Shown here: positions 15,498-32,647 of the stretch, piece after piece
Position numbering within the stretch: the first letter of the stretch is position 1
Layout of the letters: each line of letters begins with the position of its first letter
From: Rhodospirillaceae bacterium
Lineage (GTDB): Bacteria > Pseudomonadota > Alphaproteobacteria > GCA-2731375
Direction of reading: 5' to 3'
Length of the DNA: 32,647 bases
Assembly: GCA_018660265.1 (NCBI GenBank)
Contig: JABJKS010000096.1
Location: 1-32,647 of the forward strand
Made by a program: the position numbers and the translations under genes
Notes under the pieces: model-generated
Seen by the model: only the letters and a program-made list of their open reading frames with translations
Databases searched by the model: none
What the model was told of the DNA's origin: nothing

Positions 15498-16490
15498 GTG
15501 GTGGATGCAGCCAGGCGGGATGCGGTTGCGGCGTTGCGCCGGCGTGTTGCGACCATTGAGCAGGGCCCCGTGCGGGCCTGGCAAAAGTCCGGCCAGGGTG
15601 TGGAGAATTTGACCCTGGGCGTGCCGGGGATCGATGTAAGATTGCCCGGCGGCGGGCTGGCCCGTGGCGGCTTACATGAAGTGCTGAGCGGTGGTCTGCA
15701 GGACGGTTATAGGGCCCAGGGACGGGGGGGCGCGGCATTGGCGTTTACGGCTGTTCTGGCAGCCCGGCGGGCAGCGCTTGGCCAGAAAAATACTGGCGGG
15801 CGGGTGCTGTGGTGTCCGGCGCACGCCAGTTCGTATGGCCCCAGCACGCATAGCCCCAACACGCATAGTACGGGGCTGTACGGCCCCGGATTGGCAGCGT
15901 TCGGGCTTGGTGCGGGGCAGTTGATCCTGGTGCATGGGCGGGATGATCAACAACGTCTGTGGGCCATGGAGGAAGGCTTGAAATGCACCGATCTGGCCAT
16001 GGTGGTGGGCGAAGTGGGGCGCTTGGACCTGGGCCAAAGCCGGCGTTTGCAACTGGCGGCGGAAGCCTCCGGCGTAACGGCCTTGTTGTTGCACATGAAG
16101 GGTGATGCGGGCCCTGGCATGGCTGGACTGGGTGTCAGTGCGGCCCTGACCCGGTGGCGCATTACCCCGGCACCCAGCGCGCCGACCATGGGCTATGTCG
16201 GCATCGGTGCAACCCGTTGCCAGGTTGAACTACTACGCTGCAAGGGCGGCCGGCCCGGGGCGTGGCAGTTGCAGTGGAGCGGCAGCAGGTGGGATGAGCA
16301 GCATGAAGACAATGAAACATCCAGACGAAGAGACCCCAAAAGAGACTTCGAAAGAAATTCTGGAAGAGACTCCGAAAGAGCTCATCCAGGGCAGCGGGAA
16401 ACGAATCCTGTCCCTGTGGTTGCCCCACTGGCCCACGGATCGGCTGTATCGGGCCCAAAAGAGAAAGCAGCAGGGGCAGCGCGGGCCTGA
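15498..16490 (+). CDS. imuA: ImuA, RecA-like accessory protein of the SOS mutasome
   Basis: ImuA is a RecA/SulA-related protein that acts with ImuB and DnaE2 in damage-induced mutagenic translesion synthesis. The diagnostic stretch LTLGVPGIDVRLPGGGLARGGLHEV lies at about residues 38-62, followed by GRVLWCPA and the region ending LRCKGGRPGAWQLQWSGSRWDE. The GTG at 15498 (or 15501) follows AGGGAAGGG and is preferred. A TTG at 15453 lies only 4 bases after the LexA box, too close to a promoter. The final 50 or so residues are highly basic and run out of frame through the start of imuB, an unusually long overlap. Within the protein a five-residue tandem repeat (PSTHS-PNTHS, about residues 115-124) interrupts the usual sequence. 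It is first in the SOS operon. Confidence 0.87.
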   Translation: MVDAARRDAVAALRRRVATIEQGPVRAWQKSGQGVENLTLGVPGIDVRLPGGGLARGGLHEVLSGGLQDGYRAQGRGGAALAFTAVLAARRAALGQKNTGGRVLWCPAHASSYGPSTHSPNTHSTGLYGPGLAAFGLGAGQLILVHGRDDQQRLWAMEEGLKCTDLAMVVGEVGRLDLGQSRRLQLAAEASGVTALLLHMKGDAGPGMAGLGVSAALTRWRITPAPSAPTMGYVGIGATRCQVELLRCKGGRPGAWQLQWSGSRWDEQHEDNETSRRRDPKRDFERNSGRDSERAHPGQRETNPVPVVAPLAHGSAVSGPKEKAAGAARA

Positions 16491-18054: not shown

Positions 18055-21000
18055 GCTATGCCGAACTACAGGTAACCTCGAACTTCAGCTTTCTGCGCGG
18101 CGGCTCCCATGCCGATGAACTGGCGATCAGCGCTGCCGCCCTGGGCCTCACAGCCATTGCCATCACGGATCGTAACAGTCTGGCCGGGGTGGTGCGGGCC
18201 CATAGTGCGGCCAAGACCGCCGGTATTCGCCTGTTGGTGGGGGCGCGGCTGGATTTACAAAGTGGTTTGAGTTTGCTGTGTTTTCCAACTGACCGGGCCG
18301 CCTATGGCCGCCTGTCGCAATTGCTGACCACAGGGCGGCGGCGGGCCCCAAAGGGGGAATGCTGGTTGGAACTGGATGATGTTCTGGGCCATGATGAGGG
18401 TCAGATTTTCGTCGTGCTGCCACCCGCCGAACCTGATCAGGCATTTATCGAGCAACTCCATCGCCTGGGTGAGACTTGGCCGGGGCATTGTTATCTGGCG
18501 GGGCATTATCTTTATTCCGGCGATGACCGCCGCCGTCTGGCCCACCTGGCCGCGCTGGCAGAGGCTGCCGCCACACCCCTGGTGGCGACCAACGATGTGC
18601 ATTATCACACGCCCGGACGGCGGATCCTGCAAGACGTTCTGGTTTGTATCCGTGAACATTGCACCTTGGCGGAGGCCGGTTTTCACCTTAACGCCAATGC
18701 CGAACGGCATTTGAAAAGCGGCGATGAAATGACCCGCCTGTTTGCTGATCACCCGGACGCGGTGGCCCGTACGGTGGAGCTGGCGGACCGCTGCCGCTTT
18801 TCCCTTGCTGAATTGGCCTATGAATATCCTGCCGATCCGGTACCGAAAGGCCGCACGGCGCAAGAGGAACTTGCGCGCCTGACCTGGGCCGGGGCGCACG
18901 AACGCTATGGCACGGTGATCGACCAGGAGGTGATTGAACTGTTGCGGCATGAGTTGGAACTGATTGGCGAGCTTGAATACGCGCCCTATTTTTTGACTGT
19001 GCATGACATTGTCCGCTTTGCCCGCGAGCGGGATATTTTGTGTCAGGGCCGGGGCTCTGCCGCCAATTCCGCCGTTTGTTACTGCCTTGGCATTACAGCC
19101 GTGGACCCCGCCCGCCTGGATCTTTTGTTCGAACGCTTCATCTCGGCCGAGCGGGATGAGCCGCCTGACATCGATGTGGATTTTGAGCATGAGCGGCGCG
19201 AAGAGGTGATCCAGTATGTCTATGAGAAATATGGCCGCCACCGCGCAGGTATGACCGCCACCGTCATTAGTTATCGGTCGAAAAGTGCGATCCGCGAGGT
19301 CGGTAAGGCCCTGGGCCTGTCCCTGGATGTGGTCGGCGCCCTGGCGGACAATGTCTGGGGCTGGGGCGGTGATGAGGTGGAGGGCGACAAGGTGCGAGAG
19401 ATCGGGCTGAACCCTGATGACCCCACCGTTGCCATGGCCATCCGCCTGGCCCGGGAGTTGAAGGGCTTTCCCCGTCATCTGTCCCAACATGTGGGTGGCT
19501 TCGTTATCACCCGTGGCCCCTTGTCAGAGGTGGTGCCGATCACCAATGCGGCCATGGCGGATCGTACGGTGATCGAATGGGACAAGAATGATTTGGATGC
19601 CTTGGGTATTCTGAAGATCGATTTGCTATCCCTGGGCATGCTGACCTGTATCCGCAAGGGCCTTGATCTGATCGCGGCCCATTATGGCAAGCGGTTCAGT
19701 TTGGCGACCGTCCCGGCGGAGGACCCCGGCGTTTACGATATGTTGTGTAGGGCCGATAGTATTGGTGTCTTTCAGGTTGAAAGCCGGGCCCAGATGACCA
19801 TGCTGCCCCGCCTGCGCCCGCGCAATTTCTATGACCTGGTGATCGAGGTTGCCATCGTCCGCCCCGGGCCAATTCAGGGTGATATGGTGCACCCCTATCT
19901 GCGGCGGCGGTCGGGGAAGGAACGCGTTGATTTCCCCTCTGATGATCTGCGTCAGGTTTTGGGTAAGACCCTGGGTATACCCCTGTTTCAGGAACAGGCC
20001 ATGCGTATCGCCATTGTCGCTGCCGGCTTTACGCCGTCGGAGGCTGACCGTCTGCGCCGGGCCATGGCCACCTTTCGCCACACCGGCACCATCCACACCT
20101 TTCGCCAAAAGATGATCGAGGGGATGACCGCGCGCGGTTATGAGCGGGATTTTGCCGAACGTTGTTTCAAACAGATCGAAGGTTTTGGCGAATACGGCTT
20201 CCCGGAAAGCCACGCCGCCTCCTTCGCGCTGCTGGTCTATATCTCCGCCTGGATGAAACATCATTATCCATCGGTCTTTGCCTGTGCCCTGTTGAACAGC
20301 CAACCCATGGGGTTCTATGCCCCGGCCCAGATTGTCCGCGATGCCAGGGAACATGGGGCAGAGGTGCGCCCGGTGGATGTCAATTATTCGAACTGGGATT
20401 GCACCCTGGAAGATAACGGCGCTTTACGTCTGGGCCTGCGGCAGATCCGCCGTTTTCGGGAGGCCTCCGCTGATATTTTAATGGCGGCACGGGGCGGGGG
20501 CTATGACAGCCCGGAGGATTTATGGCGGCGCACGGGCCTGGGGGCCGGTGGGTTGGAGACATTGGCGGATGGTGATGCCTGGCGCTCCACCGGGTTGGAC
20601 CGGCGGGCAGCGTTATGGGCCCTCAAGCGTTTGAACCAGCCCGAGCTACCCCTGTTTGCCGCGGCCCAAATCCGTCCCCCCAGTATAGATGCACCAAGGG
20701 AGGCCGAGGTTGCCTTGCCGGATATGCCCATTGGCGAACAGGTGGTGCAGGATTACAGCAATCTGCGCCTGTCCCTGAAGGATCATCCCTTGCGCCTGCT
20801 GCGCCCGGCCTTGGATGCGCGGGGCATTATCGAGAATGAAGAATTACTGAACCTGTCGGCGGGCAACCGGGTCACCGTGGCGGGCCTGGTCCTGGTACGG
20901 CAACGGCCTGGTACCGCGCAAGGGGTGATCTTTATCACCATTGAGGATGAGGGGGCCGTCGCCAATATCATTGTGCGCCCCCCGGTATTCGAGGCCTATC

Positions 21001-21257
21001 GCCGGGTGGTGCTGTCCGCCCGGTTGTTGGGCGCACGGGGCCGGGTGGAACGCGAAGGCATGGTGATCCATGTCCTGGCTGAAGAGCTGATCGATCTATC
21101 TGTGGAATTGGATCGTCTGCGCGAAGATCCTAGAATTGGCGGGGGCGTCAATAGTTCCGCGCAACCTTTCGCCCGCCGGGGTCAAGGCAGTCATGGGGGC
21201 CATCCCCGCAATGCAAACCCCGCAGCCCCGATCCCGCAGCCCCGAAGTTTCCGCTAG
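18051..21257 (+). CDS. dnaE2: DnaE2, error-prone DNA polymerase III alpha subunit
   Basis: This 1068-residue C-family polymerase carries out mutagenic translesion synthesis with ImuA and ImuB. The N-terminal PHP domain begins YAELQVTSNFSFLRGGSH (2-19) and continues AIAITDRNSLAGVV. The polymerase site PDIDVDF lies at 372-378, with Asp375 and Asp377 matching the catalytic pair of DnaE, and GRGSAANSAVCY precedes it (about 339-350). Helix-hairpin and OB-fold regions follow; VTVAGLVLVRQRPGT near 943 marks the OB domain. QPELPLF at 863-869 resembles a sliding-clamp-binding motif. The ATG at 18051 overlaps the imuB stop (ATGA), so the trio is translationally coupled. Full length, with no disruption. 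It ends 83 bases before the convergent FlaEY-like gene. Confidence 0.95.
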   Translation: MSYAELQVTSNFSFLRGGSHADELAISAAALGLTAIAITDRNSLAGVVRAHSAAKTAGIRLLVGARLDLQSGLSLLCFPTDRAAYGRLSQLLTTGRRRAPKGECWLELDDVLGHDEGQIFVVLPPAEPDQAFIEQLHRLGETWPGHCYLAGHYLYSGDDRRRLAHLAALAEAAATPLVATNDVHYHTPGRRILQDVLVCIREHCTLAEAGFHLNANAERHLKSGDEMTRLFADHPDAVARTVELADRCRFSLAELAYEYPADPVPKGRTAQEELARLTWAGAHERYGTVIDQEVIELLRHELELIGELEYAPYFLTVHDIVRFARERDILCQGRGSAANSAVCYCLGITAVDPARLDLLFERFISAERDEPPDIDVDFEHERREEVIQYVYEKYGRHRAGMTATVISYRSKSAIREVGKALGLSLDVVGALADNVWGWGGDEVEGDKVREIGLNPDDPTVAMAIRLARELKGFPRHLSQHVGGFVITRGPLSEVVPITNAAMADRTVIEWDKNDLDALGILKIDLLSLGMLTCIRKGLDLIAAHYGKRFSLATVPAEDPGVYDMLCRADSIGVFQVESRAQMTMLPRLRPRNFYDLVIEVAIVRPGPIQGDMVHPYLRRRSGKERVDFPSDDLRQVLGKTLGIPLFQEQAMRIAIVAAGFTPSEADRLRRAMATFRHTGTIHTFRQKMIEGMTARGYERDFAERCFKQIEGFGEYGFPESHAASFALLVYISAWMKHHYPSVFACALLNSQPMGFYAPAQIVRDAREHGAEVRPVDVNYSNWDCTLEDNGALRLGLRQIRRFREASADILMAARGGGYDSPEDLWRRTGLGAGGLETLADGDAWRSTGLDRRAALWALKRLNQPELPLFAAAQIRPPSIDAPREAEVALPDMPIGEQVVQDYSNLRLSLKDHPLRLLRPALDARGIIENEELLNLSAGNRVTVAGLVLVRQRPGTAQGVIFITIEDEGAVANIIVRPPVFEAYRRVVLSARLLGARGRVEREGMVIHVLAEELIDLSVELDRLREDPRIGGGVNSSAQPFARRGQGSHGGHPRNANPAAPIPQPRSFR

Positions 21258-21293: not shown

Positions 21294-21342
21294 ACCGATC
21301 ACTTGGGTCGCAAAGGTGACACCAACTCGGTCAAGATTTTTT
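21294..21342 (+). terminator. Weak terminator candidate between dnaE2 and the convergent gene
   Basis: ACCGA (21294-21298) and TCGGT (21327-21331) can pair, with partial extra pairing inside the long loop, and TTTTTT follows at 21337-21342. The helix is short and the loop large, so support is weak. No better terminator is seen in this 83-base convergent gap. Confidence 0.22.
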
Positions 21343-24085
21343 AGGTAACGATGTTCAGCATATTCTGCGTGCTGCCACCGGTCTGACCCTGAAGCCGCAT
21401 TTGATTGGTTAGGTTCATGGAAGATGCCACGGAGGTAATGGCACCAAGGGCACCTTGCAACTGGGCCAGGCGTTCCCTGTCTGCGGCCTTAAGACTAATT
21501 GGTGGTTCCAAATCAGCGTCAGGCCCGATCGCGATATAACGGAACATTTTGCGCACTTCCCGCAAGGCACTATCAATCAGTACGCCAACCTCGGCGGCTT
21601 TTGCCGGCGTTTCCAATGACAAATCCCCGACCAGACCAAGTTCGAAGATAGAGGATTTGATCTTCTCTTCCTCCTCATCATCCAAACCTTCGGGGGCAGC
21701 GTAAAGCGTCGCTTCCTCAAAGCCCAGGCCGGCGAGGGCATCAAAACCCTCGGGTCCGGCAAGGATTTCAACCACCGCGCCGTTTTTCGCTTCAATCTTC
21801 AGGCCGGAGTCATCGAGATTATTAATGACGTTGGATGTGCCAAAATTGCCCAAGGCTTTCTTGATCTTATAGGATAGGAAACCCAAGGTATCATCGGTCT
21901 CAATCTCAATACGTTTCGTGGACCCGCCATCAACCCGGATCGAAAAATATTGTCCCGGCCGTAGAGTTGTCGTGCTTAGAATTTCGTCCGGCGGTGCTAT
22001 CGGTAATTCGCCTGTTGGCAGACCAAGGCGGCTGATTACGGATGTTGCCGCGCTATCAAAAACGATGCCATTACCACTTTGCGAAACGGCACCATGATCC
22101 TGGCTGGCCCAGGCCTCTGTGCCGGTATTATCCAATTTCATGACGAAGGCATCTTGGACGCTGGCATTGGCACCACCATCTACAGCACCCTGGGTGGCGC
22201 CGGTCAGATAGATTTCATCGGCCCCGGCAGAGGCCTTGACCGCGATACCGTTGACGGCGTCTGTACTGCTACTGCCCACGTAAGTGGTCCAGCCCACGGC
22301 GGCGGATGCACCCGAATCCACAATTTGGGTGACAAAGCCGTCGCTGCCCCCTGAATGGGCATTGACGATGCTGCCCGAAAGGGCGCTGTTGGTGGTTTGT
22401 CCTGAAATATAGACATTGCCGCTGCTGCCCACGGCAATATCGGTCACCGTGCCGTCGGTGTTCAAAGCACCCAGATTGACTTCCCAATCCGGCGTTTGCG
22501 AGGCGTCACTATCCACGTAACGGCGCAATATGGCATTGCCGTCCTTTTCGCCGGCGACATAGACGTTGCCCGCGCCATCCGTGGCAATCGCCGTGGCGCG
22601 GTCATCGCCGGTACCACCGAACTGTTTGTTCCAGACCAGCGTGCCGCTGCTATCAAGTTTCGTCAGATAACCATCAGAACTGCCCGCATGGGTCACTTCA
22701 GAGCTGATTTGTGCGTAGGTCTGGCCGGCCACGAAAACATTTCCCGAAGCATCTGTTGTTAAGGCCAGGGCGGCATCGTTGGCATAGGGTGCGGCCTGCC
22801 GGGTCCATTGCTCGGCACCGGAACTATCGAACTTGGTTACAAAACTGTCATAGTTGCCGCCATACGAGGTCGCGCTCAAATCACCCCGTACGCTACCCGC
22901 GATGATCACATTGTCGCTACTGTCGACAGTAACGGCGAAACCATTGGCGTCTTCCGTAGCCCCCAACATGCGGGACCAGACCAACTCGCCCGCGGCATCA
23001 TATTTCCGTAGGTAGGCATCGTTCGTGGCCTGATTGGCAAGCCCTTCCAGGTCGCCCGCGGTAGAACCAACGGAATAGACATAGCCCTGGCTATCCACAG
23101 CAACGGAATTCGCGCTATCGGCCTCGGAGGTTTCGATATCAGCGCGGAAAGCATCGTTGGGCGTCGTATTGCCCAAATCGTCTACGTTTTTCACGAAACC
23201 GGAGGAATAGTCACCGACATTATTGGTGCCAGCGACAAAGACACCAGCAGATGGATCAGACGGATTTCCGAATGTTACGGTTTCTGTGGCATTTAAATTG
23301 AGGTGGAAACCGTAGGAAAATTCGCTGAAGCGCTGGGCATTCATGGTCGAGGTCACGCCATTCGCGCTCAACTGAGAGTTCACATAGGTGGAGATGTTAT
23401 CTACATCCAACCCGCCCGATACCTGGGAGAGGTCAATCGTAATGACCTTGGTCTCGACAGAATTCACGACGGTTATATCGAAGGTCTCGGTACCCGTCAG
23501 GCCCGGGATGGCATCCGTGCGGTTTTCGGTTACCTGGGACGAATAATGGAAGGGTGTCGTGTATTTTGGATCCTTGGGGAAAGACTGTGTCGATGTTTGC
23601 GTGGCTTGTTTAATGCCGTACAGCAACGTCGTATCTTCAAATTTCAAATCACCGACAAAACTGCTTAACTCATCTATGTAACCGTCGAAGCGGTTTTGCA
23701 GCAATCGCGACTGGCTGGCCGCACCTGTTTCGCTTTCGGCATAGGTGGCCATTTCCCGTAGCTTTGTCAGGCCCGTGTAAAGGCCGAACAAATTCTTGAA
23801 CTGATCATCGCCTGCAGTGTTGTTTACCCGCGGATCTGACAGATCGATCAAGGGGCCCGACGAATAAATTCGTTGCAGGATCTCTTCGAATGGATTGGCT
23901 TTAGGTAAAGTCCAGGGCGGTATGATCGAAGGGTCAACGGTGGCGAATGAATCGCTTAGCAGTTCATCCTGGATTTTCGAGGCATGGCCAGACAAGCCCA
24001 ACGAAACGCCAGACGAATAGAACGCACTCAGGACATTGTTGTCAAACTGAACAGGTTGCAATCCGGATGTTGGACTAAGTGCCAT
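21341..24085 (-). CDS. Large beta-propeller-repeat protein, FlaEY-like flagellar regulator
   Basis: This 914-residue protein has no signal peptide. The N-terminal third is polar and partly helical, with a flagellin-like stretch around VITIDLSQVSGGLDVDN (about residue 215-235). Residues about 312-662 hold six or seven SBBP-type propeller repeats, each built like 'GNVYVAG...DGYLTKLDSSGTLVW'. A domain with GQYFSIRVDGGSTKRIEIET follows. The C-terminus is helical and ends LTNQMRLQGQTGGSTQNMLNIV. The arrangement and termini resemble proteins annotated FlaEY in Caulobacter and Rhodospirillales, linked to flagellin production. The neighbouring sugar operon is consistent with flagellin modification. 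The start ATG lacks an obvious Shine-Dalgarno site. The name is recognised by eye; an alternative is a generic SBBP-repeat surface protein. Confidence 0.6.
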   Translation of the reverse strand: MALSPTSGLQPVQFDNNVLSAFYSSGVSLGLSGHASKIQDELLSDSFATVDPSIIPPWTLPKANPFEEILQRIYSSGPLIDLSDPRVNNTAGDDQFKNLFGLYTGLTKLREMATYAESETGAASQSRLLQNRFDGYIDELSSFVGDLKFEDTTLLYGIKQATQTSTQSFPKDPKYTTPFHYSSQVTENRTDAIPGLTGTETFDITVVNSVETKVITIDLSQVSGGLDVDNISTYVNSQLSANGVTSTMNAQRFSEFSYGFHLNLNATETVTFGNPSDPSAGVFVAGTNNVGDYSSGFVKNVDDLGNTTPNDAFRADIETSEADSANSVAVDSQGYVYSVGSTAGDLEGLANQATNDAYLRKYDAAGELVWSRMLGATEDANGFAVTVDSSDNVIIAGSVRGDLSATSYGGNYDSFVTKFDSSGAEQWTRQAAPYANDAALALTTDASGNVFVAGQTYAQISSEVTHAGSSDGYLTKLDSSGTLVWNKQFGGTGDDRATAIATDGAGNVYVAGEKDGNAILRRYVDSDASQTPDWEVNLGALNTDGTVTDIAVGSSGNVYISGQTTNSALSGSIVNAHSGGSDGFVTQIVDSGASAAVGWTTYVGSSSTDAVNGIAVKASAGADEIYLTGATQGAVDGGANASVQDAFVMKLDNTGTEAWASQDHGAVSQSGNGIVFDSAATSVISRLGLPTGELPIAPPDEILSTTTLRPGQYFSIRVDGGSTKRIEIETDDTLGFLSYKIKKALGNFGTSNVINNLDDSGLKIEAKNGAVVEILAGPEGFDALAGLGFEEATLYAAPEGLDDEEEEKIKSSIFELGLVGDLSLETPAKAAEVGVLIDSALREVRKMFRYIAIGPDADLEPPISLKAADRERLAQLQGALGAITSVASSMNLTNQMRLQGQTGGSTQNMLNIVT

Positions 24086-24407: not shown

Positions 24408-25985
24408 ATGACACTGGAATTTCTAGACGTAAAACGTGGGTCTTCCGGCCCGCCTGAGACGGCGCGCGAAAAAATTCGTGGCATCGAGGAACTGGCCCGC
24501 ATGGCGGATGAAACCCGCGCTGCAGGTGGCGAGGTTGTCCTTGCCCACGGTGTCTTTGATTTACTGCATATGGGCCACGTCCGTCATTTGGAAGCAGCCC
24601 GCGCCGAAGGTGACCTTTTAATCGTTACCCTGACCGCGGACCGATACGTCAACAAAGGTCCCGGCCGCCCCATATTCCCCGAGATGACCCGGGCTGAAAT
24701 GGTCGCGGCACTAAGCTGTGTCAGCGGGGTTGGTATTTCCAACTGGTCTACAGCCGAGGGCGTGTTGCGATTTATTCGTCCGTCCATTCTGGTCAAGGGC
24801 CAGGACTATGCCAATGAAGATGACGATATAACGGGTGGTATCCGGCGGGAGCGGGAGCTGGTTGAAAGCTTTGGCGGCCGCGTAGTCTTTACCGACGATA
24901 TTACAGATTCATCATCCTCCCTGATCAACCGTCATTTAAATGTGTACGATTCAGAAGTACACGAATATCTGAATGGTTTACGCCAACATGATGTGGCAGG
25001 CCGGGTCGTTCAGGCCCTGGAAGGTATTCAAAACCACCGGGTCCTGATGGTGGGAGAGGCCATCATAGACGAATATCAATACGCCGCGCCCATGGGGAAA
25101 TCCGCCAAGGAGAACATCATCGCCTCCCGCTATGAAGGCCGGGAAGTGTTTGCGGGCGGGGTCATAGCCTCTGCCAATCATGTCGCCTCCTTCGTCGAAC
25201 AGGTTGATGTCATCACCTGTATTGGCGAGGAAGATTCTTACGAAGATCTGATCCTCGATACCGTGGTGCAGAATGTTAATGTGCATTTCGTGCGTCTGCC
25301 AGGCGTGCCGACCATTCGCAAATGCCGGTTTGTTGATCCCGGCCATATGCGGAAATTGTTCGAGGTCTATCATTTCGACGACACGCCGTTAAGCGGTCGC
25401 AAGGAAGACGAACTTTGCAGCCTTATCGCGGAGAGGGCCGCGGACTTTGACCTGGTCGTGGTCAATGACTTCGGCCACGGCATGATGACGCCGCGTTCCA
25501 TCGATCAAATCATTCGGCGTTCAAAGTTCCTGGCCGTCAATGCGCAAAGTAACAGTGCCAACCACGGCTACAACCCGGTCAACAAATACGCCAAGGCGGA
25601 TTACGTCTGCATCGATGCGCCCGAGGCGCGCCTGGCGGTCCGCGACCGGTTTTCCGAGGTCAGCGATCTGGTTCAGGGGCCATTGCGGGAATTGATCGAA
25701 TGCAATCGCATTATCGTCACCCACGGCCAGCACGGCTGTATCACCTTCGATAGTAAGGAAGGTCTGGGCAAAGTCCCGGCCTTTACCCGTCAGGTGGTGG
25801 ATACTGTCGGCGCCGGCGATGCGTTTTTATCGGTTACGGCGCCTTTGGTGCAGTCAGATGTAAATATGGAATTGGTGGGGCTGATCGGCAACGCGGTGGG
25901 GGCCATGAAAGTGGGCATCGTCGGCCACCGGTCATCGGTACAGCGGGTGCCGTTGATGAAGTTCCTGACAGCGTTGTTGAAATAG
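24408..25985 (+). CDS. Bifunctional nucleotidyltransferase-PfkB kinase (HldE domains in reversed order)
   Basis: This 525-residue fusion contains both halves of HldE-type enzymes in the opposite order to E. coli. The N-terminal cytidylyltransferase-like domain (about 44-185) has VVLAHGVFDLLHMGHVRHLE with the catalytic HMGH at 54-57, and GPGRPIFPEMTRAEMVAAL. The C-terminal ribokinase/PfkB domain (about 200-520) has an FAGGVIASANHVASF glycine region near 250 and VDTVGAGDAF with catalytic Asp471. HldE phosphorylates D-glycero-D-manno-heptose 7-phosphate at C1 and, after a phosphatase step, transfers a nucleotide. Here the substrate is probably a heptose or a related sugar phosphate; this is inferred from the GmhA-like gene next door. 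It is first in the operon, with 27 bases to the next gene. Confidence 0.85.
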   Translation: MTLEFLDVKRGSSGPPETAREKIRGIEELARMADETRAAGGEVVLAHGVFDLLHMGHVRHLEAARAEGDLLIVTLTADRYVNKGPGRPIFPEMTRAEMVAALSCVSGVGISNWSTAEGVLRFIRPSILVKGQDYANEDDDITGGIRRERELVESFGGRVVFTDDITDSSSSLINRHLNVYDSEVHEYLNGLRQHDVAGRVVQALEGIQNHRVLMVGEAIIDEYQYAAPMGKSAKENIIASRYEGREVFAGGVIASANHVASFVEQVDVITCIGEEDSYEDLILDTVVQNVNVHFVRLPGVPTIRKCRFVDPGHMRKLFEVYHFDDTPLSGRKEDELCSLIAERAADFDLVVVNDFGHGMMTPRSIDQIIRRSKFLAVNAQSNSANHGYNPVNKYAKADYVCIDAPEARLAVRDRFSEVSDLVQGPLRELIECNRIIVTHGQHGCITFDSKEGLGKVPAFTRQVVDTVGAGDAFLSVTAPLVQSDVNMELVGLIGNAVGAMKVGIVGHRSSVQRVPLMKFLTALLK

Positions 25986-26012
25986 TGAATTTGAGGAAAC
26001 GGGATAGTAAGT

Positions 26013-26675
26013 ATGCACAGTAACAGTGTGGCGGCCATGCAGGCGCGGGTAGAGGACTATTTCTCGGAGCTGGCCCGGCTGCCCGAACAAACCCTGGTGA
26101 CGGATAATCAGGATCGGGAAATGGCCATGGCTGATTTGTTCCCGATCATGATCGAACGCTTTGCCCGCCATCGTGATGGTGACGGCAAATTGATGTTCGT
26201 GGGCAACGGAGCGTCTGCCTCTATCGCCTCGCACATGGCGCTTGATTTTTCCAAAAATGGCAAAGTGCCGGCACTGGCCTTCAATGATGCGGCATCCTTG
26301 ACCGCGTTGAGCAATGATGAAGGTTACGACCAGGTGTTTGCCAAGCAGATCGAATATTTCGCCATCGAAGGCGATTTTTTGGTCGCTATATCGTCATCGG
26401 GCAATTCGGCAAACATCATCAATGCGGTGCATGCGGCGCGTGCCAAGGGCTGTGGTGTTTTGACCTTGTCGGGCCTGGGCGCAGACAACAAGTTGCGCCA
26501 GATGGGCGACTACAATCTTTTCGTGCCTTCGGGCGAATACGGCTTTGTTGAGATCGTACATGGCGGGCTGATCCACGCTCTGCTGGATATCTTCATGGGC
26601 TGGTCGGCCGAAACGGGCCTGTGGAACAAATCCAATCAATCGCAAAAGATAAACCAAGAAAGAGGTGCGGCATGA
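26013..26675 (+). CDS. SIS-domain sugar isomerase (GmhA/phosphoheptose isomerase-like)
   Basis: This 220-residue sugar isomerase domain protein has GNGASASIASHMALDFSKN (about 64-82), the ISSSGNSANIINA phosphate-binding loop (about 125-137), and the C-terminal VEIVHGGLIHALLDIF (about 175-191). Its pattern is that of GmhA, which turns sedoheptulose 7-phosphate into D-glycero-D-manno-heptose 7-phosphate. It is somewhat longer than typical GmhA (about 190-200 residues). The stop overlaps the next gene's ATG (ATGA, 26672-26675). Next to an HldE-like fusion, the heptose assignment is reasonable but other ketose/aldose phosphates cannot be excluded. Confidence 0.83.
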   Translation: MHSNSVAAMQARVEDYFSELARLPEQTLVTDNQDREMAMADLFPIMIERFARHRDGDGKLMFVGNGASASIASHMALDFSKNGKVPALAFNDAASLTALSNDEGYDQVFAKQIEYFAIEGDFLVAISSSGNSANIINAVHAARAKGCGVLTLSGLGADNKLRQMGDYNLFVPSGEYGFVEIVHGGLIHALLDIFMGWSAETGLWNKSNQSQKINQERGAA

Positions 26676-27679
26676 GCCCGGAAAACATCAAGATGAATGT
26701 CATGGTCACGGGCGGCGGCGGCTATGTGGGCTCCTGCTTAATTCCGAAATTGCTCGCCGCCGGCCACAAGGTCACCGTGCTGGATCTGTTCATCTATGGC
26801 ATGGGGGTTTTTAACGGTGACGGCGAGCATCCCAATCTGCGTTGCATCAAGGGCGATATCCGCGATCCGAAGGCAGTCGCCAAGGCGGTGGAGAATGCGG
26901 ATGCTGTGATCCATCTGGCCTGCATTTCCAACGATCCCAGCTTTGAATTGAACCCCGATCTGGGAAAGTCCATCAATTTTGACTGTTTCCGGCCCCTGGT
27001 TCGTGCCGCCAAAGATGCGGGCGCGCGACGTTTTATCTATGCCTCCTCGTCATCCGTCTATGGCATCAAGCAAACGGAGAATGTCACGGAAGATCTGTCG
27101 TTGGAGCCGTTGACGGATTATTCTAAATTCAAGGCCATGTGCGAAGACGTCCTGGATGAAGAGCGGGAGCCTGGTTTTGTGACCCTGACCCTGCGCCCTG
27201 CCACGGTCTGTGGTTATGCGCCTCGATTACGCCTGGACCTGACGGTCAATATTCTGACCAATCATGCCATCAACAATAACAAGATTACGGTCTTTGGCGG
27301 GGCGCAGAAACGTCCCAACATCAATGTAGAGGATATGACCGATCTGTATGTACAGTGCCTGCAATATCCCGATGCCATGATCGACGGCAAGGTCTTCAAC
27401 GCCGGGTATGAAAACCACACGGTCAGCCAGATCGCCGAGATGGTCCGCAGCAATGTGGGCGAGGCAGTGGATATTGTCACCACGCCTTCGGACGATGATC
27501 GCTCCTACCATGTGTCATCCGCCAAAATTAAGCAGGAACTGGGCTTTGTTGCCCGCCACAGCATCGATGATGCGGTCAACAGCCTGACCAAGGCCTTTGC
27601 CGCCGGTAAAGTGCCCAACCCCATGCAGGACGCCCGTTACTATAACGTCAAGCTGATGCAGGATATTCACCTGCAATAG
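26672..27679 (+). CDS. NAD-dependent epimerase/dehydratase (extended SDR)
   Basis: This 335-residue extended short-chain dehydrogenase acts on a nucleotide sugar. The Rossmann motif VTGGGGYVGS (about 12-21) binds NAD(P). The catalytic residues are the SSSSVYG serine region (about 124-130) and Tyr150-x3-Lys154 in YSKFK. INVEDMTDLYVQCL near 213-226 matches the family's later conserved block. The ATG at 26672 overlaps the isomerase stop and follows AGAGGTG, so it is preferred over an upstream start at 26621. In the heptose pathway an epimerase (HldD) acts last, although this protein looks more like UDP-glucose 4-epimerase/dehydratase relatives. The exact stereochemistry is unknown. A 94-base gap follows. 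Confidence 0.87.
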   Translation: MSPENIKMNVMVTGGGGYVGSCLIPKLLAAGHKVTVLDLFIYGMGVFNGDGEHPNLRCIKGDIRDPKAVAKAVENADAVIHLACISNDPSFELNPDLGKSINFDCFRPLVRAAKDAGARRFIYASSSSVYGIKQTENVTEDLSLEPLTDYSKFKAMCEDVLDEEREPGFVTLTLRPATVCGYAPRLRLDLTVNILTNHAINNNKITVFGGAQKRPNINVEDMTDLYVQCLQYPDAMIDGKVFNAGYENHTVSQIAEMVRSNVGEAVDIVTTPSDDDRSYHVSSAKIKQELGFVARHSIDDAVNSLTKAFAAGKVPNPMQDARYYNVKLMQDIHLQ

Positions 27680-27721
27680 TGGTTAAAACAGCCTGAAAAA
27701 ATGGCCAGCCGTAGGGCATTA

Positions 27722-27729
27722 TTAACCAT
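27722..27729 (+). promoter_or_regulatory. CtrA half-site-like motif TTAACCAT
   Basis: TTAACCAT matches the half-site reported for CtrA in Alphaproteobacteria. It lies in the 94-base gap between the epimerase and HAD genes, about 45 bases before the latter's ATG. It might mark an internal promoter. Eight bases can occur by chance, so the support is low. Confidence 0.28.
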
Positions 27730-27773
27730 TTTCGCGCCTAATTGGACTGTCACATAGTCAGGACGGTTTGGGT

Positions 27774-28439
27774 ATGCGGATCGGCATCGATTTCGATAAC
27801 ACCATTGCAGGGTATGACGCGCTTTTCGCCGCATTGGCGGAGGAGCGCGGCCTGTTTCAGAACGCGCGCCATAGCGCGCCGCATGGTGTTCTCCTTGGTG
27901 CGCCTGTGGGCAAGAAAGATTTACGTGATGCCCTGCGTCAACGGCCCGAGGGGGAGTTGACATGGCGGCGGTTGCAGGCGGAGGCCTACGGTGGCCGTAT
28001 GAGCGATGCGGAATTGCTGGACGGGGTTGATCGTTTCGTAAAAGCCTGCCGTCAGGCCGGTATATCTCTATCCATCGTCTCCCACAAAACCCAGCATGCC
28101 AATTTTGCCTCCGACGGTACGGACCTGCGCAAGGCCGCGATCCGTTGGATGGAGGAGCATGGCTTTTTTGATCCTGCGGGTCTGAAATTCCGTCCCGACG
28201 ATGTCTTCTTTGCCGACACCCGTGCGGCCAAGGTGGCCAAAATTTCCGACCTGAACTGCAACTGGTTTATCGACGATTTGGAAGAGGTTTTCGCGGAACC
28301 GGGCTTTCCCGCATCCGCCCGTGCGGTCCTTTATGATCCGCATGGGGATGTTGAGGCCGGTAGCAGCGGTGCCACAGATTTTTTACGCTGCCGCCACTGG
28401 GACGAGATTGGGGGGCACGTCTTTGGCTCCCACCACTAA
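27774..28439 (+). CDS. HAD-superfamily hydrolase-like protein
   Basis: This 221-residue protein begins MRIGIDFDNT, the first HAD motif with nucleophile Asp6 and Asp8. Later motifs are visible: ISLSIVSHKTQ (about 99-109, Ser/Thr and Lys region) and FIDDLEEVF (about 163-171, the acidic metal-binding motif). It is probably a phosphatase acting on a sugar phosphate, in the position a GmhB step would occupy. True GmhB starts with a DRDGT motif, so it is a different HAD lineage. The ATG at 27774 follows AGGACGG by 7 bases; a TTG at 27768 is less likely. The next gene starts about 34 bases after the stop. Confidence 0.75.
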   Translation: MRIGIDFDNTIAGYDALFAALAEERGLFQNARHSAPHGVLLGAPVGKKDLRDALRQRPEGELTWRRLQAEAYGGRMSDAELLDGVDRFVKACRQAGISLSIVSHKTQHANFASDGTDLRKAAIRWMEEHGFFDPAGLKFRPDDVFFADTRAAKVAKISDLNCNWFIDDLEEVFAEPGFPASARAVLYDPHGDVEAGSSGATDFLRCRHWDEIGGHVFGSHH

Positions 28440-28473
28440 TAGCACCACTGGTATTGATACGCCGGAGGCCGCC

Positions 28474-29481
28474 ATGGCGGCGGCGACGGCGCTATTGGGT
28501 GATCCGGTGCGTGAGGTTAGCCGCCAACGGGGCGGCGGCAACAACCGCCTGTATCGGGTGGAGGCGGCGGATGGTCGCCGTTATGCCCTGAAAACCTATT
28601 TGCAACGTCCCGGCGATGACCGTGATCGGCTCGGTGCGGAATTTGGTGGCCTGGCGTTTCTGCGGGCCCAGGGCCTGGACCGCCAGGTGCCCCGCGCCGT
28701 GGCCCGCGACCCCGAGCGTCATTGTGCTTTGTTTGGCTGGGTCGATGGCGATGCGGTCGGCCAGCCCACACCCCGCGATTTGTTTGAAGCCTTGTGCTTT
28801 GTCTTGGATCTTTACCGCCTGACCGAACAGCCTGAGGCTGCGGCCCTGCCGCTGGCGTCAGAGGCATGTTTGTCCGGTGCGGAAGTCGCCCGTCAAATCG
28901 ACCGTCGCCTGGATCGTTTGTTGATGATCGACGATCAGCGTCTGCGCGCCTTTCTCATCGACACCTTCGCCCAGGCCTATGAAACTCATTGCGAGCGCGC
29001 CATGGCACTTTATCAGCGACGGGATTTAAATTTTTCTGAACCGGTCCCGCATTCGGCCTTGACCCTTTCGCCATCGGATTTTGGTTTTCACAATGCTATT
29101 CGCCGGGCCGACGGCCGCCTGGTCTTTGTTGATTTCGAATATTTTGGCTGGGACGATCCGGTGAAACTGGTGGCGGATTTCCTGCTCCACCCCGGCATGA
29201 GCCTGGATGTGGAATTGCGCCGGCGCTTTCGCCGCGGTGCCGCTGCCGTGTTTGGCGGCGACCATGATTTTGATGTCAGGCTGCGCGCCTTGTTTCCGCT
29301 CTATGCCATGCGCTGGTGCCTGATTTTGCTAAACGAATTTCTGCCCGAACGTTGGCAGCGCCGCGATTACGCCGGTGCGCACCAGGATCGGGAGTATGCC
29401 CTGAATGCTCAGCTGGCCAAGGCAAACGCCATGCTGGACCAACTTAAAGATGCCAACACAGAGGTTTTTGAAGATGATTAA
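28474..29481 (+). CDS. APH/choline-kinase-like phosphotransferase
   Basis: This 335-residue protein has an aminoglycoside-phosphotransferase-type kinase fold. The N-lobe nucleotide region is RGGGNNRLYRVEAADGRRYALKTY (about 19-42), with Lys40 the likely ATP-contacting Lys. The catalytic loop is SPSDFGFHN (about 198-206), a variant of HxDxxxxN with Ser instead of His. The metal motif is VDFEYFGWDDP (about 219-229). It probably phosphorylates a sugar or other small molecule for the cluster. The ATG at 28474 is chosen because GGAGG (28464-28468) lies 5 bases before it and it follows the upstream stop. The stop overlaps the next ATG by 8 bases (ATGATTAA). The substrate is unknown. Confidence 0.77.
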   Translation: MAAATALLGDPVREVSRQRGGGNNRLYRVEAADGRRYALKTYLQRPGDDRDRLGAEFGGLAFLRAQGLDRQVPRAVARDPERHCALFGWVDGDAVGQPTPRDLFEALCFVLDLYRLTEQPEAAALPLASEACLSGAEVARQIDRRLDRLLMIDDQRLRAFLIDTFAQAYETHCERAMALYQRRDLNFSEPVPHSALTLSPSDFGFHNAIRRADGRLVFVDFEYFGWDDPVKLVADFLLHPGMSLDVELRRRFRRGAAAVFGGDHDFDVRLRALFPLYAMRWCLILLNEFLPERWQRRDYAGAHQDREYALNAQLAKANAMLDQLKDANTEVFEDD

Positions 29482-30337
29482 TTTCGCCGCATTAGAGCAC
29501 GAGGCCCATTCCGTATATGAACCACTGGCGCTGGATAGACGCTCCCGCGATCTGCGTCGCCTGGTGGTCCGGGGCCTGGTTGGCGGCGGGCGAGGGCATT
29601 TAGGTTCGGCCCTGTCGGCAATCGAAATCGTCCGCGTGCTTTACGATGACATCATGGCTCATCAGCCCGATCAACCGGAATGGGCCGAACGGGATAGGTT
29701 TCTGCTTTCAAAAGGCCATGGCTGTTTGTCGCAATATGCCATTTTGGCCGACCACGGCTATTTCCGCATGGGTGAGTTGGACCGGTTTTGCCGCTTTGAC
29801 GGTATTTTGGGTGGCCATCCTGATGCTGGTAAGGTGCCTGGCGTTGAAGCTTCCACCGGGGCCCTGGGGCATGGCCCCTCCATCGCCGTGGGTATGGCGA
29901 TTGCCGCCAAACTAAAGGGGGCTGCCCATCGGATCTTCTGCGTCACCGGTGATGGCGAGATTAACGAGGGTTCCGTCTGGGAAGCGGCCATGGCGGCAGG
30001 TAAGCACAAGCTGGATAACCTGACGATCATCGTTGATTATAATAAATTGCAATCCTATGACCGCACGGAAGTGGTTCAGGATCTGGAGCCGCTAACCTCC
30101 AAATGGGAAAGCTTTGGTTTTGCAGTGCGCAATGTGGATGGCCACGACGTCGAAGGCCTGCGCCGTACATTTTCCAGCCTGCCATTTGCCGACGGCCGGC
30201 CCAGCGCGGTCATTGCCCACACCATCAAAAGCCGTGGCGTGGCGCATGCCGAGGGTGATCCGGCCTGGCATCACAAATCAAAAATGACAACTGAAGAGAT
30301 CGACGGCGTTCTGGCAGCGATCGAAGGGGAGGGCTGA
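29474..30337 (+). CDS. Transketolase N-terminal subunit
   Basis: This 287-residue protein is the thiamine-diphosphate-binding half of a split transketolase. The motif GDGE (159-162) with EINEGSVWEAAMAAGKHKLDNLTIIVDYN, ending at Asn190, is the canonical ThDP/Mg site. GRGHLGSALSAIEIV (about 37-51) and KGHGCLSQYA (about 79-88) match transketolase active-site loops. The ATG at 29474 overlaps the kinase stop by 8 bases, and GAGG lies 9 bases upstream. It needs the pyrimidine-binding half, encoded next with a 2-base gap. A cluster-specific transketolase might supply sedoheptulose 7-phosphate or build a branched or elongated sugar. Confidence 0.92.
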   Translation: MINFAALEHEAHSVYEPLALDRRSRDLRRLVVRGLVGGGRGHLGSALSAIEIVRVLYDDIMAHQPDQPEWAERDRFLLSKGHGCLSQYAILADHGYFRMGELDRFCRFDGILGGHPDAGKVPGVEASTGALGHGPSIAVGMAIAAKLKGAAHRIFCVTGDGEINEGSVWEAAMAAGKHKLDNLTIIVDYNKLQSYDRTEVVQDLEPLTSKWESFGFAVRNVDGHDVEGLRRTFSSLPFADGRPSAVIAHTIKSRGVAHAEGDPAWHHKSKMTTEEIDGVLAAIEGEG

Positions 30338-30339
30338 GC

Positions 30340-31284
30340 ATGCGCAAAACATGTCTCGACGTAGTATATGACCTGGCTAAACAGGATGAGCGGGTGGTCT
30401 TCATCGGCTCCGACCTTGGGGCTGGTACCCTGGATCAATTTCGCGATGAAATGCCGGATCGTTTCTTTATGGAAGGGGTTTCGGAACAGAACCTGATTGG
30501 CATGGCAGCGGGCCTGGCCATGGAAGGCTTCATTCCTTACGTCAACACCATTGCAACTTTCATCACCCGGCGCTGTTACGAACAGCTGGCGGTGGATCTG
30601 TGTCTGCATAATCTGCCCGTGAAGCTGATCGCCAATGGCGGCGGTCTGGTCTATGCCCCCTTGGGCCCGACCCATCTGGCGATTGAGGATATGGCTATCC
30701 TGCGCGCCTTGCCGCGGATGAGCATCTTTGCACCATGCGATAGGGAGGAGATGACCCGCCTGGTACCCCAAACGCTGGATATGACGGGGCCCTGTTATAT
30801 CCGTCTGGCTAAGGGTGGCGATGAAGTCGTCTCGGAAGCAGAGCGGGGTTTTGAGATTGGTAAAGCCATTCAGATGCGCAAGCCGGGTAAAGTGTTGATC
30901 ATCGGCACGGGCATCACCACCACACGGGCCCTGCATGCAGCGGAAGAACTGGAAGGCCAGGGGATCGATTGCGGTGTGCTGCATATGCACACTGTAAAAC
31001 CCTTGGATGAAGCCGCAATCCTGTCGCAATTGGATGGGGTGGAGCTGTTGGTGACCGTTGAAGAACATACTCTTGTCGGTGGCCTGGGCAGTGCGGTCGG
31101 TGATCTGTTGCTTGATAAGGCACCCAACGCCGTCAGCCGCCTGGTACACCTCGGCATCCCGGATATCTTCGCCGATAAATACGGCACCCAAGATGAGTTG
31201 TTGGAATATTACGGCCTGCAAGGCTTCCAAATCGCCCAGCGCATTCGCGACACCTTGAAAGGGGAAGGGGCCCAGGTCGCATGA
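30340..31284 (+). CDS. Transketolase C-terminal subunit
   Basis: This 314-residue protein is the pyrimidine-domain plus C-terminal half of the split transketolase. The conserved FMEGVSEQNLIGMAAGLA contains the catalytic Glu49 that activates thiamine diphosphate. NGGGLVYAPLGPTHLAIEDMAILR (about 101-124) carries the conserved His region, and the C-terminal domain includes IIGTGITTTRALHAAEEL. It follows the N-terminal gene by 2 bases, behind GGGGAGGG, and overlaps the oxygenase gene by 4 bases (ATGA). The dedicated pair lies in a carbohydrate cluster rather than beside central-metabolism genes, which argues for a specialised product. Confidence 0.92.
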   Translation: MRKTCLDVVYDLAKQDERVVFIGSDLGAGTLDQFRDEMPDRFFMEGVSEQNLIGMAAGLAMEGFIPYVNTIATFITRRCYEQLAVDLCLHNLPVKLIANGGGLVYAPLGPTHLAIEDMAILRALPRMSIFAPCDREEMTRLVPQTLDMTGPCYIRLAKGGDEVVSEAERGFEIGKAIQMRKPGKVLIIGTGITTTRALHAAEELEGQGIDCGVLHMHTVKPLDEAAILSQLDGVELLVTVEEHTLVGGLGSAVGDLLLDKAPNAVSRLVHLGIPDIFADKYGTQDELLEYYGLQGFQIAQRIRDTLKGEGAQVA

Positions 31285-32132
31285 ACTACGGCCTACCACT
31301 CACAGCATCGGAAACCCTGCCACGGCCAGAAGGGTTCCTTCGTGCCGATGAGGCAGCACTTGGCAGCCATTTCCTGGAACACGGCTATGTCATTGCACCT
31401 GTTGCCGACCTGGGCGCGTTGGACCGTCTGCGCGACGCCATGGCTGAAATCGCAGCGAAACATTTGGGTCTGGGCAAGGTACAGGATACCGGTGCTTTGT
31501 TGGACGATATCCACGGACATGTTGAGGCAACGGACCTGAATGCCCTGCGCATGACGGTGATAAACGGCGTCAATGATCTGCCTTGGGCCCGGCAAACTTA
31601 TTTCGAGCTGGCCAGGCCCTTGTTGGAGGCCATTGTCGGCAACGAATTGGCCATGCAGCGGCGTCTGAATTTGTCGATCCAGCTACCCGGTGATGACAGC
31701 TCGTTGCTGGCAGTGCACGCCGACGTCTGGGATGGCGACAGTCCATTCGAGGTCGTGGTTTGGCTGCCCTTTGTGGATTGCTTCAATACCAAGACCATGT
31801 TTTTGCTGCCGCCCGAACAGGGTCATGCCGTGGAAGCGCGGATGGCGGATTTTGACGGCGGCGATACGGAGGATCTGTTCAACGACATTGAAGCGGATCT
31901 GACCTGGTTGGACGTACCCTATGGCCAGGTCCTTTTGTTCAATCAGAACCTGATGCACGGCAATCGTATCAACCGGGAAGGCGGCACCCGCTGGACCATG
32001 AATTGCCGTTTTAAAGGCCTGTTTTCGCCCTATGCCGGCAAGCGTTTGGGGGAGTTTTTTGAGCCCATTACCGTCCGCCCTGCCTCTCGCGTGGGGATGA
32101 GTTATGAAATGCCGGGAGGCTTCGTTGAATAA
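31281..32132 (+). CDS. 2OG-Fe(II) oxygenase of the sporadic carbohydrate cluster type
   Basis: This 283-residue protein has the iron-binding facial triad of 2-oxoglutarate dioxygenases: His146-x-Asp148 in VHADVWDGDSPFEVVVW, and His226 in NLMHGNRIN. Arg237 in TRWTMNCRFK is the likely 2OG-carboxylate ligand. It resembles phytanoyl-CoA-type enzymes, specifically the family found beside LIC12192 proteins in surface-carbohydrate loci. The likely reaction is hydroxylation or oxidation of a sugar or sugar nucleotide; this is inference. The ATG overlaps the transketolase stop (ATGA). Its 3' end overlaps the next gene by 8 bases, so translation is coupled. Confidence 0.83.
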   Translation: MNYGLPLTASETLPRPEGFLRADEAALGSHFLEHGYVIAPVADLGALDRLRDAMAEIAAKHLGLGKVQDTGALLDDIHGHVEATDLNALRMTVINGVNDLPWARQTYFELARPLLEAIVGNELAMQRRLNLSIQLPGDDSSLLAVHADVWDGDSPFEVVVWLPFVDCFNTKTMFLLPPEQGHAVEARMADFDGGDTEDLFNDIEADLTWLDVPYGQVLLFNQNLMHGNRINREGGTRWTMNCRFKGLFSPYAGKRLGEFFEPITVRPASRVGMSYEMPGGFVE

Positions 32133-32538
32133 TCAGACCAACAGATTAGGCCATCGCGGCTATATCGCGTCCCGTCCGGTACGCGGCCAGGACTGGCCCC
32201 AGCATGTGCAAAATCTTGTGGTGCGTGACTATGCCCAGCGCAATGATTTGCACTATCTACTCTCCGCTACGGAATACGCCATGGACGCCTGCTATATGAA
32301 CCTTGAAACGGTTCTGGGCGAACTGGACAGCATTCAGGGCGTGGTCTGTTTTTCCCTGTTTATGTTGCCCAGCAGGGCGGAACGACGGCATGCGCTTTAT
32401 CAACGGATATTCGAAGCAGGCGCGGATTTGCACGGCGCGTTGGAAAATATGGCCATTCGCGGCCCGGAAGATGCCGCCCGTCTGGAAGACATCTTCATGG
32501 TTGACCGTCACGCAATATCCACCCTGCAGGCGAGTTAG
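32125..32538 (+). CDS. LIC12192-family sporadic carbohydrate cluster protein
   Basis: This small protein of about 137 residues contains RGYIASRPVRGQDWPQHVQNLVVRDYAQRN, HYLLSATEYAMDACYMNLETVL and GVVCFSLFMLPSRAERR-like sequence. I recognise these as the LIC12192 family, a marker of scattered surface-polysaccharide clusters (first noted in Leptospira). No enzymatic function is established. TTG at 32125 is chosen because GGGAGG (32114-32119) sits 5 bases upstream; an in-frame ATG at 32104 would extend it by 7 residues. It overlaps the oxygenase stop by 8 bases, and 8 bases separate it from the next gene. It may be a partner of the oxygenase. Confidence 0.82.
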   Translation: MNNQTNRLGHRGYIASRPVRGQDWPQHVQNLVVRDYAQRNDLHYLLSATEYAMDACYMNLETVLGELDSIQGVVCFSLFMLPSRAERRHALYQRIFEAGADLHGALENMAIRGPEDAARLEDIFMVDRHAISTLQAS

Positions 32539-32546: not shown

Positions 32547-32647
32547 ATGGCATTTGTTGATTTCGTAGGCATCGTGCACAAGGCAACCACCCGGGACTAT
32601 GTCCAGCGGGTGGTGGAGCACGACAAGGCCGAATGCGCCGAGGTGGC
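32547..32647 (+). CDS. Probable SAM-dependent methyltransferase, 5' end only
   Basis: The window ends inside this gene. The 33 visible residues begin MAFVDFVGIVHKATTRDYVQR and continue with VVEHDKAECAEVA. This is like the N-terminus of class I methyltransferases found in lipopolysaccharide and surface-sugar clusters. The start follows the upstream stop by 8 bases, so it belongs to the same operon. With only 33 residues and no SAM-binding motif in view, the call is tentative. Confidence 0.42.
   Translation, partial: MAFVDFVGIVHKATTRDYVQRVVEHDKAECAEV

Follow-up and report, generated by a model that had tools for sequence, protein, structure and literature searches.

The window analysed here is an entire contig of 32,647 bases (C17; JABJKS010000096.1, assembly GCA_018660265.1) from a Rhodospirillaceae bacterium, whose assembly of 5.55 Mb is 97% complete. 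Nine close-set genes on the + strand span positions 24408-32538 and form an operon in which a split transketolase (TK) is combined with enzymes resembling those of nucleoside diphosphate (NDP)-heptose synthesis. The genes and the start of a tenth one are as follows.

24408..25985, + strand: NTK, a nucleotidyltransferase (N-terminal, HldE-like) fused to a PfkB kinase (C-terminal); PF01467 and PF00294.
26013..26675, + strand: SIS, a GmhA-like sugar-phosphate isomerase; PF13580.
26672..27679, + strand: SDR, an extended SDR of the NAD epimerase type (PF01370); likely start at 26672, with the open reading frame (ORF) opening at 26621.
27774..28439, + strand: HAD, a HAD-type phosphohydrolase-like protein and member of the TK cassette, assigned by motifs.
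28321..29481, + strand: APH, a predicted APH/choline-kinase-type small-molecule kinase; start uncertain.
29474..30337, + strand: TKN, the N-terminal half of the split TK, thiamine diphosphate (ThDP) side; PF00456; the ORF opens at 29405.
30340..31284, + strand: TKC, the C-terminal half of the split TK, with an altered substrate pocket; PF02779 (Transket_pyr) and PF02780 (Transketolase_C).
31281..32132, + strand: OXY, a sporadic carbohydrate cluster 2-oxoglutarate (2OG)-Fe(II) oxygenase; TIGR04324.
32104..32538, + strand: LIC, a LIC12192 family protein; TIGR04323.
32547..32647, + strand: start of MT1, a class I methyltransferase gene, of which only the first codons precede the contig end.

With the preferred starts, the successive intergenic distances are 27, -4, and 94 bases, then an overlap (the APH start is uncertain), and -8, 2, -4, and -29 bases. 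A preliminary description of this DNA had reported a tight operon with a split TK, a GmhA-like isomerase, an HldE-like fusion, a HAD protein, an SDR, a further kinase, an oxygenase, and a LIC12192 protein, and all of these genes are present on the + strand at the positions listed above. It had placed the operon at 24408-31284; the genes within this interval are there, but the operon continues beyond 31284 with OXY and LIC and is interrupted by the contig end. The last 101 bases of the contig are the beginning of the methyltransferase gene that is found after LIC in relatives (33 codons visible at 32547-32645, 94% identity to MT1 of the relative L016, E 9e-16), so the operon is truncated. Many genomes share this gene order, which is therefore not due to chance; the operon stands for a pathway that is real, conserved, and modular.

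The relatives of the operon were collected by scanning species genomes once with NTK as the query, which gave 124 confirmed relatives, and 80 loci were kept. The 59 loci studied are the window, L014-L063, L096-L101, and the plasmids of Azospirillum oryzae (L103) and Solidesulfovibrio carbinolicus (L104); L064-L093, which make up 30 of the 80 and hold partial or more distant NTK matches, were left out. The usual order is NTK, SIS (in some loci), and SDR, followed either by HAD-APH-TKN-TKC or by a pair resembling pyruvate dehydrogenase E1-alpha/E1-beta. Thirty loci are of the TK type, ten have the E1-like pair, and 19 have neither. Many of these 19 are cut by contig ends, and L037, whose E1A match is cut in this way (123 bases), was scored among them. 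In 27 of the 30 TK loci and 4 of the 10 E1 loci, NTK is followed within 4 kb by an SDR with at least 50% identity, and SIS was found in 18 of the 30 and 5 of the 10, respectively. In L014, L015, and L017, extra genes are inserted between SDR and HAD, at the border of the two modules. The E1-like pair of A. oryzae scores under the pyruvate dehydrogenase cut-offs, and no E2 or E3 subunit is annotated in this stretch, for which the gene table is incomplete. A second set consisted of 398 genomes of the phylum searched with NTK (E 1e-60) and HAD (E 1e-8). NTK was present in 49 and HAD in 32 of them; both occurred in 30, which is far above chance (NTK in 30 of 32 HAD genomes vs 49 of 398 overall). 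From these genomes, 40 stretches were fetched, and eight of them (L169, L170, L171, L173, L178, L179, L200, and L201) contain NTK and the E1-like pair without HAD or APH.

The HAD and APH ORFs have no match to any Pfam or NCBIfam family at E 0.01. Nevertheless, their motifs are well preserved: DFDNT, SHK, and FIDDL are near-invariant in 34 aligned HAD sequences, and SPSDFGFHN and DFEYFGWDDP are near-invariant and present in all 32 aligned APH sequences (the window included in both alignments). In some relatives, the two are fused in one reading frame. The single-frame protein of L034 was modelled from a 33-row alignment with a pLDDT of 95, and the structures matched by the kinase half of the model, with Z about 20, are APH-type kinases, choline kinases, and N-acetylhexosamine 1-kinase (Z 20.3 for the last). 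From this model of a relative, APH is predicted to have an APH/choline-kinase-type fold. The structure comparison covered almost solely the kinase half, and the assignment of HAD is motif-based.

HAD and APH belong with TK and not with NTK, because one or the other is present in 29 of the 30 TK loci vs none of the 10 E1 loci. When loci are grouped at 80% NTK identity, the difference is 15/15 vs 0/9 (Fisher p 7.6e-7, uncorrected for phylogeny). The single TK locus without either gene, L059, ends inside the TK gene. Six of the ten E1 loci, all of which are without HAD and APH, have at least 4 kb of sequence beyond the pair. In the second set, all 14 stretches with a cassette-family TK carry HAD-APH immediately upstream of it. 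Among the 59 loci, L047 and L053 have TK before HAD-APH. The genes form a cassette, perhaps a transferable one, that is found in at least two phyla (in Alphaproteobacteria and in Solidesulfovibrio). In L034, L039, L041, L043, L101, and many second-set stretches, the genes downstream of TK encode a radical SAM protein (about 60-67% alike) and a methyltransferase, whether OXY-LIC is there or not.

The split TK keeps the parts needed to bind and activate ThDP in a transketolase: the His, GDGE, and N of TKN are preserved across 31 aligned sequences (with LGHG replacing LGQG in 30 of them), and TKC carries EQN. It is the substrate pocket that has changed. The His, Asp, and Arg of the transketolase pocket bind substrate hydroxyls and phosphate. 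Reference TKs from Carboxydothermus and human read H..G...GEDG(A/P)S(H/Q), whereas cassette TKCs read GGG.VYAPLG(P/A)TH at this place, or GSG..YA.LGATH in L047 and L053. Cassette TKCs have lost both the His and the Asp of H..G.GEDG, and a later Arg is replaced by Lys. This substitution occurs in 29 of 29 cassette TKCs, in 13 of 13 of the second set, and in S. carbinolicus, 43 in total. The 13 were counted with rows L169 and L171 (E1-beta-type) and L194 (DXS-like) left out; L176 (TKN 31%, opposite strand) and L194 (TKC 35%, DXS-like motif) were not taken as cassette TKs. As controls, the two reference TKs have all three residues, the DXS reference has the Asp and Arg but not the His, and a second TK on the S. 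carbinolicus plasmid, which belongs to another gene group (L104), keeps His, Asp, and Arg. The cassette TKCs do not have the pocket of a sugar-phosphate-type transketolase, and the change is compatible with substrates that are not ordinary sugar phosphates. On the same plasmid, pDCAR1 (L104/L202), NTK, the HAD-APH-TK cassette, and pseB/pseC are found together, and the second split TK stands next to acylneuraminate cytidylyltransferase genes.

NTK, SIS, and SDR likely form a heptose-like NDP-sugar module, because SIS is GmhA-like, the fusion is HldE-like, and the nearest solved relative of SDR is 6vo6/6vo8 (126 bits; next-best structure 92). We take 6vo6 to be Campylobacter Cj1427, an NDP-heptose C4-dehydrogenase. 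Cj1427 is reported to oxidise GDP-heptose at C4, with 2-oxoglutarate reoxidising its tightly bound NADH (PMC10680097). SDR matches many SDR models, all under their cut-offs, and retains the catalytic YxxxK and Ser in 36 of 36 aligned sequences. The HxGH, SS, and GAGD motifs of NTK are invariant or almost so in 59 aligned sequences. Both domains that the preliminary description had seen in its HldE-like protein are present, but their order (cytidylyltransferase-like, then PfkB kinase) is the inverse of HldE. The best NCBIfam matches of NTK are HldE models, all far under their cut-offs: 154 vs 521 bits for HldE, 103.7 vs 345 for rfaE domain I, and 107 vs 181.5 for domain II. With such scores and a nucleotidyltransferase rather than a kinase at its N-terminus, NTK falls outside HldE. 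SIS likewise falls outside the GmhA equivalog (98.2 bits, cut-off 209.45).

These low scores also suit another explanation, which is that NTK, SIS, and SDR act on a different ketose phosphate and that their likeness to GmhA and HldE is mere superfamily kinship. In the genome itself, a canonical-order HldE (C91) passes with both domains (349.5 vs 345 and 188.4 vs 181.5 bits) while its whole protein stays below the cut-off (480 vs 521), and the kinase half of NTK is only 20% identical to it. SIS has a fixed Asp in 30 of 30 and a fixed Glu in 29 of 30 sequences (one gap) at two positions where Escherichia coli GmhA has Glu and Gln. Presumably these are active-site residues, and the substitutions hint at another substrate or metal site. 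We nevertheless consider a non-heptose substrate rather unlikely, as the best matches are still heptose enzymes for NTK (in NCBIfam), for SIS, and, if 6vo6 is what we take it to be, for SDR.

The rest of the genome bears on the scheme of the preliminary description, in which the operon was a self-contained NDP-heptose pathway with TK supplying sedoheptulose 7-phosphate, HAD as the GmhB-step phosphatase, and SDR as the HldD epimerase. The enzyme classes fit this scheme on paper. However, a housekeeping transketolase is present elsewhere (C87; TIGR00232, 827.9 bits, cut-off 682.25), and the pocket residues of the cluster TK are lost. Transket_pyr has ten matches in the genome outside the window. 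For the phosphatase step, there is a GmhB-like gene at C113 (130.2 bits to the best GmhB model, below the cut-off of 178), and HAD and APH track TK rather than NTK. SDR is far from HldD (63.6 bits vs a cut-off of 274.6). In addition, NTK stands with an E1-like pair in 10 loci, none of which has HAD, and by their class such pairs are not makers of sedoheptulose phosphate. The term "self-contained" is itself doubtful, since SIS went undetected in 12 of the 30 TK loci and HAD-APH-TK may occupy another locus. The second canonical gene set, for which a search had been suggested, was found in part: HldE is there with both domains, GmhA is approached by a gene at C51 (190.8 bits, cut-off 209.45), and HldD gave 12 matches in the genome, none over the cut-off (best 117 bits). 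The scheme as a whole is thus highly improbable. An NDP-sugar module remains likely, and with it the heptose part, but the one-to-one mapping of genes onto steps fails, and the roles proposed for TK, HAD, and SDR do not survive.

OXY and LIC are secure members of their families (OXY, 310.7 bits to TIGR04324, cut-off 150; LIC, 135.5 bits to TIGR04323, cut-off 55). They come as a pair, present in 22 of the 30 TK loci and in none of the 10 E1 loci; the eight TK loci that lack the pair include two truncated ones, L020 and L059. In the second set, LIC is present in 7 of 398 genomes, every one of which has NTK. In a search at E 1e-5, LIC had no match in plasmids, and OXY had none in phages. The best model of LIC, built from 16 sequences, has a mean pLDDT of 84.1 and a pTM of 0.77, and the five models ranged from 84.1 to 47.7. 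Its best Foldseek match, and the sole one below 0.001, is a serine recombinase (E 1e-4). In VIA-align, it superposes on a serine recombinase with Z 14.2 and a root-mean-square deviation of 2.9 over 128 aligned residues; the top 27 entries are all serine recombinases, and the following entry has Z 6.9. Serine recombinases carry the motifs YxRxS and DRLxR-type, both of which are missing from all 16 aligned LIC members, and Resolvase is not among the Pfam matches of LIC up to E 10. Homology to resolvases at the sequence level was rejected: hhalign, run with the 16 LIC sequences (15 after filtering) against 14 resolvases (24 loci returned, 17 used, 3 of them without sequence), gave a probability of 0.1. 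LIC is predicted to have the fold of a serine-recombinase catalytic domain without the usual motifs, an argument drawn from 16 sequences. We read it as a recombinase-like fold that may no longer cut DNA and that would be linked to the oxygenase in a sugar operon. A link to bradyrhizose was tried and dropped. In one genus, possibly Bradyrhizobium, 52 of 195 genomes have the LIC family and 20 of 195 have photosynthetic reaction-centre genes; 4 genomes have both vs 5.3 expected by chance, so there is no association.

The explanation that we prefer, and that we advance tentatively, is a two-module NDP-sugar pathway in which an NDP-(keto)heptose is made and the TK cassette then adds a two-carbon ketol branch. 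SIS would isomerise a ketose phosphate (by homology, sedoheptulose 7-phosphate), and NTK would phosphorylate and then nucleotidylate the product to give NDP-heptose. SDR would oxidise this, probably at C4, to a keto-sugar, onto whose keto group the split TK would add a two-carbon ketol (hydroxyacetyl) unit to form a branched nine-carbon sugar. HAD and APH would probably ready the TK donor or recycle the released aldose through phosphate removal and addition. The 2OG-Fe oxygenase and its LIC12192 partner, and then methyltransferases and an RmlD-like reductase (both seen in relatives with longer contigs), would complete the sugar, which is probably destined for a surface glycan. The role of TK in branching is suggested because loci hold either TK or an E1-like pair after NTK and E1-like pairs have been proposed as branching enzymes; AviB1/AviB2 and Pau11/Pau12 are proposed to place two-carbon branches on keto-sugars (PMC4753412, PMC4425429). 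Gene content, synteny, motif conservation, the co-variation of HAD-APH with TK, and the pocket substitution are observed, and from them we infer all substrates and reactions, the position of the branch, and the destination of the glycan.

Several observations count against this pathway. HAD occurs without a detected TK in L165 and L191 (HAD alone in each), in L190, and in L057, where the locus begins 374 bases before HAD; the same applies to L187, at a contig end. Besides the 12 TK loci, 5 of the 10 E1 loci gave no SIS, and an SDR of at least 50% identity within 4 kb downstream of NTK is lacking from 3 of 30 TK and 6 of 10 E1 loci. Identity between the SDR and the 6vo6 fragment is no more than 33% (97 of 295 aligned residues). 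An E1 pair and a TK cassette coexist in L189, so the two are not strict alternatives. The pocket change would speak for altered specificity and not for acceptance of a ketone. A split TK on a Sulfitobacter plasmid (L203), beside dehydrogenase and TRAP transporter genes, is also without the His and Asp (the Arg is kept); given this catabolic-looking enzyme, the loss of these residues is not peculiar to keto-sugar chemistry.

The same Sulfitobacter enzyme, by showing pocket loss elsewhere, lends itself to a different account, in which HAD-APH-TK makes a separate building block (e.g., a free or re-phosphorylated ketose) that is activated or attached by other enzymes, and the NTK product is not branched. 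In seven stretches (L182-L185, L188, L192, and L193), the cassette and NTK are on different contigs or, in L185, about 56 kb apart; as the cassette can be separate, it could equally make a free-standing precursor. A HAD phosphatase and an APH kinase with the fold of N-acetylhexosamine 1-kinase would suit a shift of phosphate from one end of a sugar to its anomeric carbon. This account is weakened by the fact that no dedicated nucleotidyltransferase is seen within the cassette in the compared loci. The presence of NTK in nearly all HAD genomes suggests a shared product, yet it fits a separate block too. We regard this account as possible but on the unlikely side. To return to the branching pathway, its most extended form holds that a transferable HAD-APH-split-TK cassette puts hydroxyacetyl on an NDP-keto-heptose to give branched C9 sugars of Gram-negative surface glycans and, at the same time, that LIC12192 is an ex-recombinase-fold partner of the oxygenase; this conjunction is doubtful.

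There are further features around the operon and its relatives. Two DegT-type aminotransferase genes are found in the E1 loci L103, L044, L055, and L063 and also in the TK loci L026, L039, L047, L056, and L096-L100, so some products of these loci are probably amino sugars. Upstream of NTK and diverging from it lies a gene for an SBBP-repeat protein of 914 aa (21341-24085, - strand; PF06739, with NF047494 below its cut-off), which is the upstream neighbour of NTK in 17 of the 59 loci. Three genes at 15453-21257 on the + strand resemble, by eye, an ImuA-ImuB-DnaE2 mutagenesis cassette.

Two-carbon branching of a keto-sugar is the best account of the TK, held with modest confidence on evidence from sequences and models. 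In a literature search covering few subscription papers, the phrase "split transketolase" was unmatched and neither LIC12192 nor "sporadic carbohydrate cluster" was mentioned, and a link to Leptospira through the name LIC12192 was dropped; prior descriptions are possible. Titles and abstracts gave nothing relevant for transketolase with GDP-heptose, PhyH, or PfkB, nor for transketolase with flagellin glycosylation. The word "transketolase" is absent from the available text of the Cj1427 paper (PMC10680097). The cluster adds 43 candidates (29 + 13 + 1) with a shared, testable pocket motif to the ketone-using transketolases, several of them in cultured environmental strains such as Paramagnetospirillum caucaseum (L034) and Skermanella aerolata (L041), and it suggests a clear guess for the acceptor of such enzymes, which have so far been proposed but are uncharacterised in vitro (PMC12247030). 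The OXY and LIC families, of which our proteins are members and whose NCBIfam names (TIGR04323/TIGR04324) give no reaction, can be given a putative position in a pathway, and a fold is predicted for LIC12192.

Among known systems, miharamycin and amipurimycin biosynthesis is proposed to involve split TKs that transfer hydroxyacetyl to a keto-sugar, and a 2025 review (PMC12247030) counts another 13 split TKs as candidate users of ketones, all from Streptomycetes and none characterised in vitro. As in our cluster, a split TK follows an oxidoreductase that is proposed to make the keto-sugar, and a transfer of hydroxyacetyl to the ketone is proposed. However, these are Streptomyces antibiotics, whereas the cluster is found mainly in Alphaproteobacteria and in Solidesulfovibrio, with an NDP-heptose-type module and HAD-APH, and the two are likened by description only. 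Another source (PMC4425429) describes two routes to two-carbon branches, one through AviB1/AviB2 together with the iron enzyme AviO2 and the other through YerE. AviB1/AviB2 and Pau11/Pau12 resemble the cluster as two-subunit ThDP enzymes among sugar genes, and avilamycin also has a non-heme iron enzyme, AviO2. These pairs are E1-like with pyruvate as the proposed donor; the E1-like pairs of the cluster family are mostly in loci without the TK cassette, and their likeness to AviB is one of class only. YerE (yersiniose A) likewise depends on ThDP and adds a C2 branch to an NDP-4-keto sugar, there for a Gram-negative O-antigen, although it is a single decarboxylase-type flavoprotein acting on a CDP-hexose backbone. 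The Campylobacter GDP-heptose pathway is alike in forming an NDP-heptose that is then oxidised at C4, and the structure nearest to SDR presumably belongs to it; in that pathway, the kinase and the nucleotidyltransferase are separate. The canonical GmhA-HldE-GmhB-HldD pathway shares the enzyme classes of SIS and NTK, and the cluster differs from it in the inverted order of the fusion, in an SDR that is not HldD, and in scores below the cut-offs.

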